Below are positions 754 to 2,506 of a stretch of DNA of 64,000 nt, piece by piece. Both the position numbers and the translations under genes were made by a program. The notes beneath the pieces are model-generated. The model was not told where the DNA came from and ran no database searches. It was given only the letters and a program-made list of their open reading frames with translations. Where the stretch lies: assembly GCF_024506395.1 (NCBI RefSeq), contig NZ_JANIBO010000001.1, positions 1,550,001-1,614,000 of the forward strand, in the 5' to 3' direction. This DNA is from Cetobacterium sp. NK01 (GTDB lineage: Bacteria; Fusobacteriota; Fusobacteriia; Fusobacteriales; Fusobacteriaceae). Position 1 is the stretch's first letter. The number at the start of each line of letters is the position of its first letter.

Positions 754-782
754 TTGACAAAATTATTTTCATATGTTACCAT
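754..782 (+). promoter_or_regulatory. Promoter of the putP leader transcript
   Basis: TTGACA (754-759), a 17-base spacer, then TACCAT (777-782) with an upstream TG (774-775), which gives an extended -10. Transcription should start near 789, about 25 bases before a leader peptide. Confidence 0.65.
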
Positions 783-813
783 AATGAAAATAAAAAATTA
801 AAGGAGAGTTCTA

Positions 814-873
814 ATGAGAAAAGATCAAGTTATTTCAAATAATGTAAATAGACAACCCATCCCCCCTAGATAG
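814..873 (+). CDS. Putative 19-residue leader peptide of putP, proline-rich at its end
   Basis: An ATG at 814 sits 7 bases after a good Shine-Dalgarno (AGGAG, 802-806). It opens 19 codons that end ...RQPIPPR, then TAG. Three of the last six codons are proline (CCC, CCC, CCT), and CCC is a rare-looking codon in this A/T-ending genome. Pro-Pro-Arg is also the kind of motif at which ribosomes pause. It lies between a promoter and an intrinsic terminator upstream of a proline transporter, the classic setting of an attenuation leader peptide. The pause and its effect are inferred from layout only. No homology to a known leader is claimed. Confidence 0.65.
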   Translation: MRKDQVISNNVNRQPIPPR

Positions 874-1020
874 GGATTTGTGTTTTAAGCATTAGTTTAT
901 GTTTAGATACAGATCCATTTTGTGTTACGATTTTGGATCTGTATCTAAGGGGAAATAACTTTTAATAAAAGATTATTTTTAATAGGATTCTTTTGATGAG
1001 GGTCACTTAGGTACAAAACT
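862..1020 (+). promoter_or_regulatory. putP leader RNA: competing hairpins (candidate attenuator)
   Basis: A perfect 15-bp hairpin pairs 903-917 with 934-948. Its 3' arm has two other possible partners. First, 940-949 can pair with 1006-1015, the 5' arm of the downstream terminator (10 bp with one G-U), forming an antiterminator. Second, 942-952 can pair with 862-872, the last proline codons and stop of the leader peptide (10 pairs with one mismatch). The region therefore has the mutually exclusive pairings of an amino-acid attenuator. Which fold wins when a ribosome pauses cannot be decided by eye. Confidence 0.6.
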
Positions 1021-1044
1021 GTACTTGAGTGACCCTCTTTTATT
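998..1044 (+). terminator. Intrinsic terminator inside the putP leader
   Basis: Arms 998-1014 and 1021-1037 form a 17-bp stem (two G-U pairs) with a 6-base loop, followed by a T-rich run. It lies before the putP start, so it must be passed for putP to be expressed. Confidence 0.85.
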
Positions 1045-1072
1045 TTTATTAAAAATTTGGGAGGAGTATAAA

Positions 1073-2506
1073 ATGATAGGAGTAGAAACATTTATTACAT
1101 TTGGAGCATATTTATTATTTTTAATAGGAGTAGGAGTTTATTTTTATGGAAAAACCTCCAGTTCCGAGGATTACTTAATAGGAGGTAGAGGAGTAGGAAG
1201 TTGGGTAACTGCGCTATCAGCACAAGCTAGTGATATGAGTGGATGGTTATTAATGGGATTACCAGGAGCAGTATATCTTTCAGGATTTGGACAAATTTGG
1301 GTTGTAATAGGTTTAACCGTGGGAACATATTTAAATTGGAAATTTATAGCTCCAAAACTTAGAGTTGAAACTGAAATAGAAGATACCTTAACTTTACCAA
1401 CATTTTTAGAAAAAAAATTAAAAGATGATAAAGGAACAATAAGAAAAGTTCTAGCTTTAGGAACACTATTTTTCTTTACAATTTATTCATCATCTGGACT
1501 GGTAGCAGCAGGAAAACTATTTGAATCAATACTTGGAATTGATTACAAAGTTGCAGTAATAATTGGTGCAGTAACAATAGTTGTTTATACATTTATGGGA
1601 GGATATTTAGCTTCTTGTTGGACAGATTTTTTTCAAGGAGGGCTAATGTTTTTAGCTATAATAGCTGTTCCGTTAGCAGCATATTATAAAATTGGAGATA
1701 TTGAGACAGTTAGACAAGGAATTGAGTTGAAAGGAATTTCATTTAATATATTTAAACAAAATGGAGAGAATATAGGAATATTAGGAGTATTGTCTTCTTT
1801 AGCTTGGGGATTAGGATATTTTGGACAACCTCATATTTTAGTTAGATTTATGAGTATAAGTGATGTAAAAGAATTAAAAAAATCTAGAAGAATAGCTATG
1901 ATATGGGTAATTATCTCTTTAATTGGAGCAATAGCAATTGGACTTTTAGGAATACCACTTTTTAAAAATGTTGCAGAGTTAGGAGGAGATGCAGAAAAAA
2001 TATTTATCTATATGATAAAAGAGTTGTTTAATCCTTGGGTAGCAGGAATTTTATTAGCTGCAATATTATCAGCTATAATGTCAACGATAGATTCACAATT
2101 GTTAGTTTCATCAACTACTTTAACAGAAGACTTTTATAAATATATGAAAAAAGATGTTTCTGACAAAGAGATAATGTGGGTTGGAAGACTATGTGTTGTT
2201 GTAATCGCTTTATTAGCATTACTATTTGCTTTAAATCAAAATGCTAAAGTACTGTCATTAGTAGCTTACGCATGGGGAGGTTTTGGAACAATATTTGGAC
2301 CAGCGATAATATCGGTGCTTTATTTTAAAAATGTGAATAGTAAAAGTGTTTTATCGGGAATTTTAGTTGGAATGTTTATATTTTTAATGTGGAAAGTTTT
2401 AGGATTAGATAGTTATATGTATGAGTTATTACCAGGATTTTTTACTAATTTAATAACGGTTTATATAGTAGAGAAAGTAGTTTTTAAAAATGTAGTTGAA
2501 GCTTAA
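1073..2506 (+). CDS. putP: Sodium/proline symporter
   Basis: A 477-residue polytopic inner-membrane protein of the solute:sodium symporter family that imports L-proline with Na+. The segments SAQASDMSGWLLMGLPG and WKFIAPKLRVETE, and the SxxTLTEDFYK region late in the protein, closely match E. coli PutP (about 500 residues). The start is set at the ATG at 1073, which has GGGAGGAG 9 bases upstream. A longer frame from TTG 1025 would begin inside the terminator stem and is rejected. The gene stands alone behind the leader, and no putA is visible. Regulation by leader attenuation is likely. A bidirectional hairpin separates it from the convergent ogt. Confidence 0.93.
   Translation: MIGVETFITFGAYLLFLIGVGVYFYGKTSSSEDYLIGGRGVGSWVTALSAQASDMSGWLLMGLPGAVYLSGFGQIWVVIGLTVGTYLNWKFIAPKLRVETEIEDTLTLPTFLEKKLKDDKGTIRKVLALGTLFFFTIYSSSGLVAAGKLFESILGIDYKVAVIIGAVTIVVYTFMGGYLASCWTDFFQGGLMFLAIIAVPLAAYYKIGDIETVRQGIELKGISFNIFKQNGENIGILGVLSSLAWGLGYFGQPHILVRFMSISDVKELKKSRRIAMIWVIISLIGAIAIGLLGIPLFKNVAELGGDAEKIFIYMIKELFNPWVAGILLAAILSAIMSTIDSQLLVSSTTLTEDFYKYMKKDVSDKEIMWVGRLCVVVIALLALLFALNQNAKVLSLVAYAWGGFGTIFGPAIISVLYFKNVNSKSVLSGILVGMFIFLMWKVLGLDSYMYELLPGFFTNLITVYIVEKVVFKNVVEA

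Follow-up and report, generated by a model that had tools for sequence, protein, structure and literature searches.

A candidate proline-sensing attenuator upstream of putP in Cetobacterium and a probable family of leader-peptide attenuators with interchangeable sensor codons

Introduction

Attenuation of transcription by leader peptides has long been known. In the his attenuators of Escherichia coli and Salmonella, a leader peptide carrying the sensor codons is followed by a chain of alternative stems that ends in an intrinsic terminator, and a ribosome stalled at these codons favours the set of stems that breaks the terminator. T-boxes sense tRNA charging in front of amino-acid transporters and tRNA synthetases, a role similar to the one proposed below, but they read the tRNA directly, without a leader open reading frame (ORF). 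Here we analyse a stretch of 64,000 nucleotides from Cetobacterium sp. NK01 (contig NZ_JANIBO010000001.1, positions 1,550,001 to 1,614,000, forward strand), hereafter the window, numbered from its first base, for which an earlier note had proposed a proline-sensing attenuator in front of the proline transporter gene putP.

Several published systems come close; what we say of them refers to the portions of the papers available to us. His attenuators with three to five His codons and attenuator, terminator, and antiterminator hairpins have been described in 17 Firmicutes genomes (Ashniev et al. 2022, PMC9413887), and a His leader in bacilli was reported by Naville and Gautheret, who previously knew of none outside Proteobacteria and Actinobacteria, ermC excepted (PMC2965389). 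The mgtP/mgtL leaders of Salmonella contain Pro codons, and conditions under which Pro-tRNA charging falls raise the transcription of the transporter operon behind them (PMC3641672). The trpB motif (RF04312) is considered a strong riboswitch candidate, with more than 900 representatives in Firmicutes and Fusobacteria, by authors who add that they are unable to exclude a classic attenuator (PMC11109978). We found no other publication on this motif under its names, nor any on a putP attenuator of Fusobacteria or on the scaffold described here, in a search that left most subscription journals outside.

The putP element of the window shares with the his-type attenuators a leader peptide with sensor codons followed by alternative stems ending in an intrinsic terminator, but its scaffold seems to serve several amino acids, to control transporters and tRNA synthetases besides biosynthesis, and, in part of the family, to include an extra pairing between the sensor codons and the tail of the antiterminator strand; it occurs in Fusobacteriota and Firmicutes. 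The His_leader model (RF00514) had no match at E ≤ 1 in the first 3000 bases of the window, nor at E ≤ 0.1 in eight loci. The Firmicutes His attenuators, which we compare by description, likewise combine His-codon leaders with terminator and antiterminator hairpins, but they belong to his operons, and the available text links them neither with the trpB motif nor with other amino acids or Fusobacteria (PMC9413887). With mgtP/mgtL the element shares a proline-codon leader ORF before a transporter gene, whereas the Salmonella leaders are unrelated and precede genes for Mg2+ transport and virulence and, as far as the accessible text goes, no proline transporter (PMC3641672). Described below are the scaffold with swappable codons, a segment that we call A, and leaders with Trp codons at RF04312.

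A proline-codon leader and chained helices upstream of putP

The region upstream of putP contains a short leader ORF ending in Pro codons and five downstream segments, A to E, that can form the chained helices A:B, B:C, C:D, and D:E, neighbouring helices being mutually exclusive and the last one being an intrinsic terminator (Table 1). Together with the comparative evidence presented below, this organization very probably corresponds to a ribosome-mediated transcription attenuator that would take the supply of Pro-tRNA as its signal and control putP. Sequence comparison gives good support to the interpretation of the earlier note, whose leader ORF, hairpin, and terminator all lie where it had placed them, the 19-codon ORF being preceded by a Shine-Dalgarno sequence. 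The gene behind is a true putP, as had been claimed (TIGR02121, 609.6 bits against a cut-off of 515.5), and the CCC codon of the leader is indeed rare (13 out of 562 Pro codons over 48 ORFs of the window).

Table 1. Coordinates of the putP leader region in the window
Feature	Position	Strand	Description
Promoter-like site	754-785	+	TTGACA-17 nt-TACCAT; pattern match plus conservation
Shine-Dalgarno sequence of leader ORF	801-808	+	AAGGAGAG
Leader ORF	814-873	+	MRKDQVISNNVNRQPIPPR and stop; 19 codons
Sensor codons	856-867	+	Pro (CCC, 856)-Ile-Pro (CCC, 862)-Pro (CCT, 865)
Segment L	862-872	+	last sensor codons and stop; possible pairing with C tail 942-952
Segment A	874-885	+	GGATTTGTGTTT; directly after leader stop; pairs with B
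Segment B	902-917	+	hairpin 5' arm
Segment C	934-952	+	hairpin 3' arm plus tail; antiterminator strand
Segment D	998-1015	+	terminator 5' arm; 1006-1015 pairs with C 940-949
Segment E	1020-1047	+	intrinsic terminator 3' arm and U-run
putP	1073-2506	+	sodium/proline symporter; TIGR02121 and PF00474

The perfect 15-bp hairpin (903-917/934-948) was recovered as described in the note, and the terminator, for which 17 pairs had been counted, was found by our scan at 998-1037 with 18 pairs and a U-run. Terminator-like sites on both strands of 500-1200 numbered two, against 0.2 expected, and the fold of 790-1045 had a z-score of -9.3 relative to shuffled sequences. The two alternative pairings that the note had listed, 940-949/1006-1015 and 862-872/942-952, comprise 10 pairs each; the latter (L:C) would connect the final sensor codons and the stop codon with the tail of C (AGGGG in the genus of the window). 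In the wiring that the note had left unsettled, segment A, complementary to 905-916 in B, had been overlooked; with it the wiring becomes intelligible, and the position of the ribosome would act on A and not on the 15-bp hairpin alone.

At the promoter claimed in the note there is a promoter-like TTGACA-17-TACCAT site (754-782). Such sites are no more numerous in the region than expected by chance (five against 3.0), so support for this one comes from its conservation: TTGACA is found in 10 of 12 aligned sequences, is replaced by TTGACT in L009, and is absent from L012. In the latter (genome G036), the end of a Gly-rich coding sequence takes the place of the usual promoter upstream of the putP leader, which may thus use a different one. 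Scanning the first 3000 bases of the window with Rfam gave no match at E ≤ 1 in the putP leader; the six sub-threshold matches all lie at 2477-2587, by the end of putP.

Conservation and covariation of the putP element

A DNA search of 61 genomes yielded 12 strong places, including that of the window. The leader ORF is kept in all of them, with its start (ATG or GTG), the P-I-P-P-R sequence, and the stop, and the hairpin and terminator in all 11 not cut by a contig end. Variant codons of the leader comprise nine synonymous and 12 nonsynonymous ones, a modest signal if taken alone. A pattern for leaders of the window type matched 12 of 96 genomes of the order. In 42 other genomes searched, 11 had a putP gene above the cut-off and eight of these true putP genes, one of them (G036) already among the 12 places, are preceded by a leader of the same layout; the seven additional peptides end in NPIVP, YPIVP (two), NPMVP, or SPIMP, or carry NPTVP (two).

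Altogether we analysed 22 Pro leaders, in which the first sensor codon is invariably CCC; the conservation of the small ORF and its Pro codons, on which the note had made its proposal depend, is thus observed. For tRNA-Pro we saw the anticodon UGG alone, in three copies (17 of 30 loci scanned, 82 tRNA matches), so that CCC is probably read slowly. The note had also considered pausing at a Pro-Pro bond, and a leader that senses Pro-Pro bond stress (shortage of EF-P) instead of Pro-tRNA would suit the PIPPR peptides of genera g1 and g2, which do contain a Pro-Pro pair. However, these make up only 11 of the 22 Pro leaders; the other 11 have PIVP, PMVP, PTVP, PRVP, or PIMP and no such pair, and the scaffold also carries His, Met, or Tyr codons in place of Pro (see below), making this explanation very unlikely.

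The pairings covary, as the note had required of its arms. When the arms of six sequences from different genera, the window included, were swapped, 3 (A:B), 1 (B:C), 2 (C:D), 1 (D:E), and 6 (L:C) of the 720 permutations, the native arrangement being counted among them, were as good as the native one; the segments had been set by hand after the pairings had been seen, a choice that the use of the same windows throughout does not remove. In 18 hand-chosen sequences of the Pro, His, Phe, and Trp types, six of the 12 A:B pairs changed on both sides (reached by 3 of 500 shuffles) and 16 cells did so (none of 500), with 92.6% paired as compared with 23-55% when the strands were slid. For B:C, 22 cells changed on both sides (none of 500 shuffles), in five pairs (54 of 500). 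Sequence comparison establishes in this way the leader and the helices A:B, B:C, and D:E, and lends moderate support to C:D and L:C.

Frameshifting by +1 or -1 at CCC CCC T was considered as well, the +1 frame (LDRDLCFKH, then stop) being open in close homologs, and was rejected: A:B accounts for what is conserved behind the stop, and other genera have different leader sequences at this point.

One scaffold with interchangeable sensor codons

A stretch of 3073 bases on the second contig of the window's genome shares 92% identity with a 705-kb plasmid of Cetobacterium somerae, and genome G035 is, judging from its plasmid, Ilyobacter polytropus (NC_014633.1), a member of Fusobacteriota; the phylum group of 98 genomes was accordingly taken as Fusobacteriota. 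A covariance model, R1, built from nine Pro leaders matched 47 of these genomes at E ≤ 0.1, and RF04312 matched 46 at E ≤ 0.01 (see below). After antisense rows, overlapping duplicates, and an identical copy of one place in G075 (L122) were dropped from these two sets, 110 places were examined, 94 of which have a leader. The 16 left out, without a credible one, are L147, L154, L158, L288, L290, L291, L298, L301, L305, L307, L312, L313, L314, L315, L317, and L318; L298, L301, L313, and L315 have chance ORFs. Three leader-bearing places stand apart from the final set: L321 (contig end), L161 (no terminator found), and L143 (Met codons can be seen, but the script did not pick up the ORF). The remaining 91 elements have 45 His, 22 Pro, 9 Tyr, 7 Met, 3 Trp, 2 aromatic, 2 Leu, and 1 Thr leaders, and a gene lies within reach of 90 of them.

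The sensor codons change together with this gene. Pro leaders precede putP; HHHHH(R) leaders, a family-3 amino-acid binding protein or hisZ; MMMMLW leaders, metN, metG, or homoserine dehydrogenase; YYYYY leaders, tyrS or an AGCS symporter; WYFYYYF or SFWYFYYF leaders, DAHP synthase; the TTTT leader, thrS; WQSH or WWWQ leaders, TrpX; and LLLL leaders, a sodium:neurotransmitter-type symporter. Genes were named by hidden Markov models (HMMs) in representatives only and by eye in the others: MetG, homoserine dehydrogenase, TyrS, ThrS, DAHP synthase, AGCS, and TrpX exceeded the HMM cut-off in at least one representative, whereas HisZ, MetN, and the family-3 binding protein were best hits below strict cut-offs, and the top match of the last was a model other than HisJ. 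Ilyobacter polytropus has its aromatic leader in front of an annotated aroF, followed by prephenate dehydrogenase. With one typed leader for each of eight gene classes, only 2 of 40320 assignments, the native included, match codons and genes as well as the native one, in a test whose spacing rule and class labels were set after the leaders had been seen. The genome of the window itself has a second element (L120, G000:C1:1873721-1873828, minus strand), with the leader MSLLFVVLNSLHHHHRY and a stop before a family-3 amino-acid binding protein.

A:B reaches p ≤ 0.01 in 77 of the 91 elements, including all 22 with Pro leaders, and in 82 of the 91 the final sensor codon begins 7-13 nt upstream of A. 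Like A:B, B:C, and D:E, this geometry and the match of codons and genes are shown by sequence comparison. For L:C, p ≤ 0.01 against shuffles was reached in 37 of 45 His, 12 of 22 Pro, 2 of 3 Trp, and none of the 21 other elements, and in eight Pro, His, Trp, and Phe elements, hand-chosen from classes already known to show L:C, 2 of 40320 swaps were as good as the native pairing. We consider L:C a likely but unproven part of the element.

These leaders also bear on the possibility of an arrest peptide responding to free proline in the exit tunnel, in the way that TnaC responds to tryptophan, with a terminal P-x-x-P at the stop stalling release once proline is bound. Such a peptide would account for the P-x-x-P found in all 22 Pro leaders, six of which end directly on it. 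Nevertheless, five or six residues follow the last Pro in four of them (all from g7) and one residue in 12, and over all elements the residues after the last sensor codon range from none to six, with 17 in L319, in place of the conserved peptide ending at the stop that is typical of TnaC. The same scaffold, moreover, occurs with HHHHH, MMMM, YYYYY, or WQxW, which fits the reading of codons better than one peptide pocket, and we regard an arrest peptide as improbable. An antibiotic-like arrest peptide, suggested by a likeness to proline-rich antimicrobial peptides, was dropped because the sensor residues change with the gene.

The scaffold with swappable codons probably serves Fusobacteriota and some of the Firmicutes as a general attenuator for amino acids, in the role that T-boxes have elsewhere; swapped codons would re-target it and, in several classes, the C tail would change along with them and so keep the untranslated state off; the trpB motif would be its Trp member. 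T-boxes (RF00230) are scarce in the phylum, with matches at E ≤ 0.001 in 20 of the 98 genomes, over the cut-off in two, and in none of 12 genomes of the window's genus, G000 among them; the first 3000 bases of the window have no match at E ≤ 1. This scarcity fits with leader-peptide attenuators doing that work, which would give a phylum with few T-boxes a general means of sensing amino-acid shortage. Since the sensor codons name the amino acid, the substrates of downstream genes become predictable: AGCS symporters behind YYYYY (L134, L293, L306, L316, and L320) are probably tyrosine transporters, predicted to act as importers, and the family-3 binding proteins behind HHHHH are predicted to belong to histidine importers. 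The natural swaps of codons on one scaffold can be seen as an evolutionary experiment in attenuator re-targeting.

Thr and Leu can only tentatively be counted among the sensor classes. Leu-rich leaders before sodium-dependent transporters read VLLLLADLL (L303 and L304) and KLLLANL (L277), and L303 and L304, in which no credible A:B is present, may represent another kind of attenuator.

The trpB motif and related elements in Firmicutes

The putP element fits the layout of RF04312, namely a hairpin, an antiterminator strand in its right shoulder, and then a terminator; the first hairpin and terminator of the motif correspond to B:C and D:E. It remains below the Rfam gathering cut-off of 59 bits: sub-threshold matches at putP elements scored 42 bits in G003 and 39.6 bits in G005, and the first 3000 bases of the window have no match at E ≤ 1. 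RF04312 matches at E ≤ 0.01 occur in 46 of the 98 phylum genomes, none over the cut-off, mostly on the part of family elements that comprises B:C and the terminator, with some chance places. At L288, L291, and L307, sub-threshold matches lie at the 3' end of rubredoxin-like genes, as judged by eye, on a chance hairpin plus terminator.

Over the cut-off, RF04312 was found in 8 of 299 genomes of the class Bacilli, at nine places, and one further place falls just short of it. All ten, and thus all nine above the cut-off, have a leader ORF containing Trp codons; nine have W-Q-x-W near the end of the leader and one a single Trp. A TrpX-like gene follows in eight, that is, at every place where the scan found a gene, and the HMM confirmed the two that were tested. 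At p ≤ 0.05, these ten places support A:B in nine, L:C in nine, and C:D in eight cases. Segment A lies upstream of the modelled part of RF04312, and the published motif has, in the text available, neither a leader ORF nor this segment.

These leaders are difficult to reconcile with a metabolite-binding riboswitch, the published reading of the motif, which its authors rank as a strong candidate while themselves leaving a classic attenuator possible (PMC11109978). In favour of a riboswitch are the sub-threshold matches in 46 of 98 genomes, but the nine places above the cut-off carry a Trp-codon leader absent from the accessible description, the pairings explain the conserved sequence, and the sensor codons change with the gene; we consider a riboswitch extremely unlikely. 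An orphan riboswitch candidate with more than 900 published representatives would instead become a testable leader-peptide attenuator.

In nine named Firmicutes genomes, RF04312 matched eight places, none over the cut-off, and four of the eight have leaders with cognate-looking codons: HHHHR before hisZ (HMM, below cut-off) in Vulcanibacillus, which we take to belong to the class Bacilli; HHHR before a hisZ-like gene and FFF before an ABC permease in Tepidibacter; and FF before a sodium-dependent transporter in Clostridium ganghwense. A similar sodium-dependent transporter follows a leader ending in KLLLANL at a fifth place, and the remaining three have no leader. Even over a wider search span, A:B stayed weak at the His place in Tepidibacter (p = 0.08).

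Ribosome position and the proposed switch

The footprint of a ribosome extends about 12 nt beyond the first base of the codon in its A site. Combined with the spacing between sensor codons and A, this footprint implies that an early stall would leave A free and that a ribosome at the stop would cover most of it. If Pro-tRNA is short, the ribosome would wait at the first, rare CCC codon, leaving A free to pair with B as B emerges; C would then be available for C:D, the terminator would be blocked, and putP would be transcribed. If proline is plentiful, the ribosome would reach the stop and cover most of A, allowing B:C and then D:E to form, and transcription would stop before putP. In the absence of a ribosome, L may pair with the C tail, which would also leave the terminator free. 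We infer that the leader ORF is translated, that the events follow this order, that the response runs in this direction, and that tRNA charging is what is sensed.

Folding before C is made is consistent with this proposal. A:B exceeds its value at the stop by more than three expected pairs at the stall in 83 of 91 elements, including all 22 with Pro leaders, and the reverse holds in three, a contrast partly built in by the geometry of the elements. At equilibrium with C and D made, 19 of the 91 elements have more C:D at the stall than at the stop and six have less; for B:C, the stop gives more than the stall in 35 elements and less in 12. Without a ribosome, a broader L region pairs with C at equilibrium in Met, part of the Tyr and aromatic, and g5 Pro elements (medians of roughly 9-16 expected pairs); the window element shows almost none of this pairing.

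Several results nonetheless weigh against a proline attenuator of this design or its extension to the whole family. In transcripts of the window element ending before C, a ribosome at the stop still leaves 6.3 of the 16.9 expected A:B pairs formed during the first-codon stall (16.4 without a ribosome), and a strict contrast (at least seven pairs at the stall, at most three at the stop) holds in just 41 of 91 elements and 9 of 22 Pro ones. Once C and D are made, the equilibrium fold of the window element is B:C in every ribosome state, with C:D near zero; equilibrium folding therefore fails as proof of switching in the window's genus. C:D reaches p ≤ 0.05 in just 40 of 91 elements and L:C p ≤ 0.01 in just 51, and the number of further pair types in A:B is ordinary (reached by 134 of 500 shuffles). 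Both Leu elements lack a credible A:B, and the Thr and one Trp element are weak. Finally, no such leader was seen before three of the 11 true putP genes (L061, L067, and L070).

The note had judged the local 15-bp hairpin to be favoured in most states, which is true at equilibrium. As B:C wins every equilibrium state, the switch in the genus of the window would have to be kinetic and co-transcriptional. The same dominance of B:C, and hence of the terminator, in all tested equilibrium states could be read as fixed partial termination, without sensing, by a conserved terminator below a chance ORF; this would leave without reason the covariation of A:B across sensor classes, the match of codons and genes, and the kept geometry, and it appears very improbable beside a ribosome-mediated attenuator.

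Additional observations

R1 had no match in the 33 putP loci from other phyla, out of 80 retrieved, to which it was applied. Neither the putP leader nor the His element had a match among plasmids, and a protein search retrieved distant binding proteins only. In genus g7 (L065, L066, L115, and L129), a second small ORF (beginning MLKVPRIKG or MIKVPRSNK), similar across species, lies between the terminator and putP.

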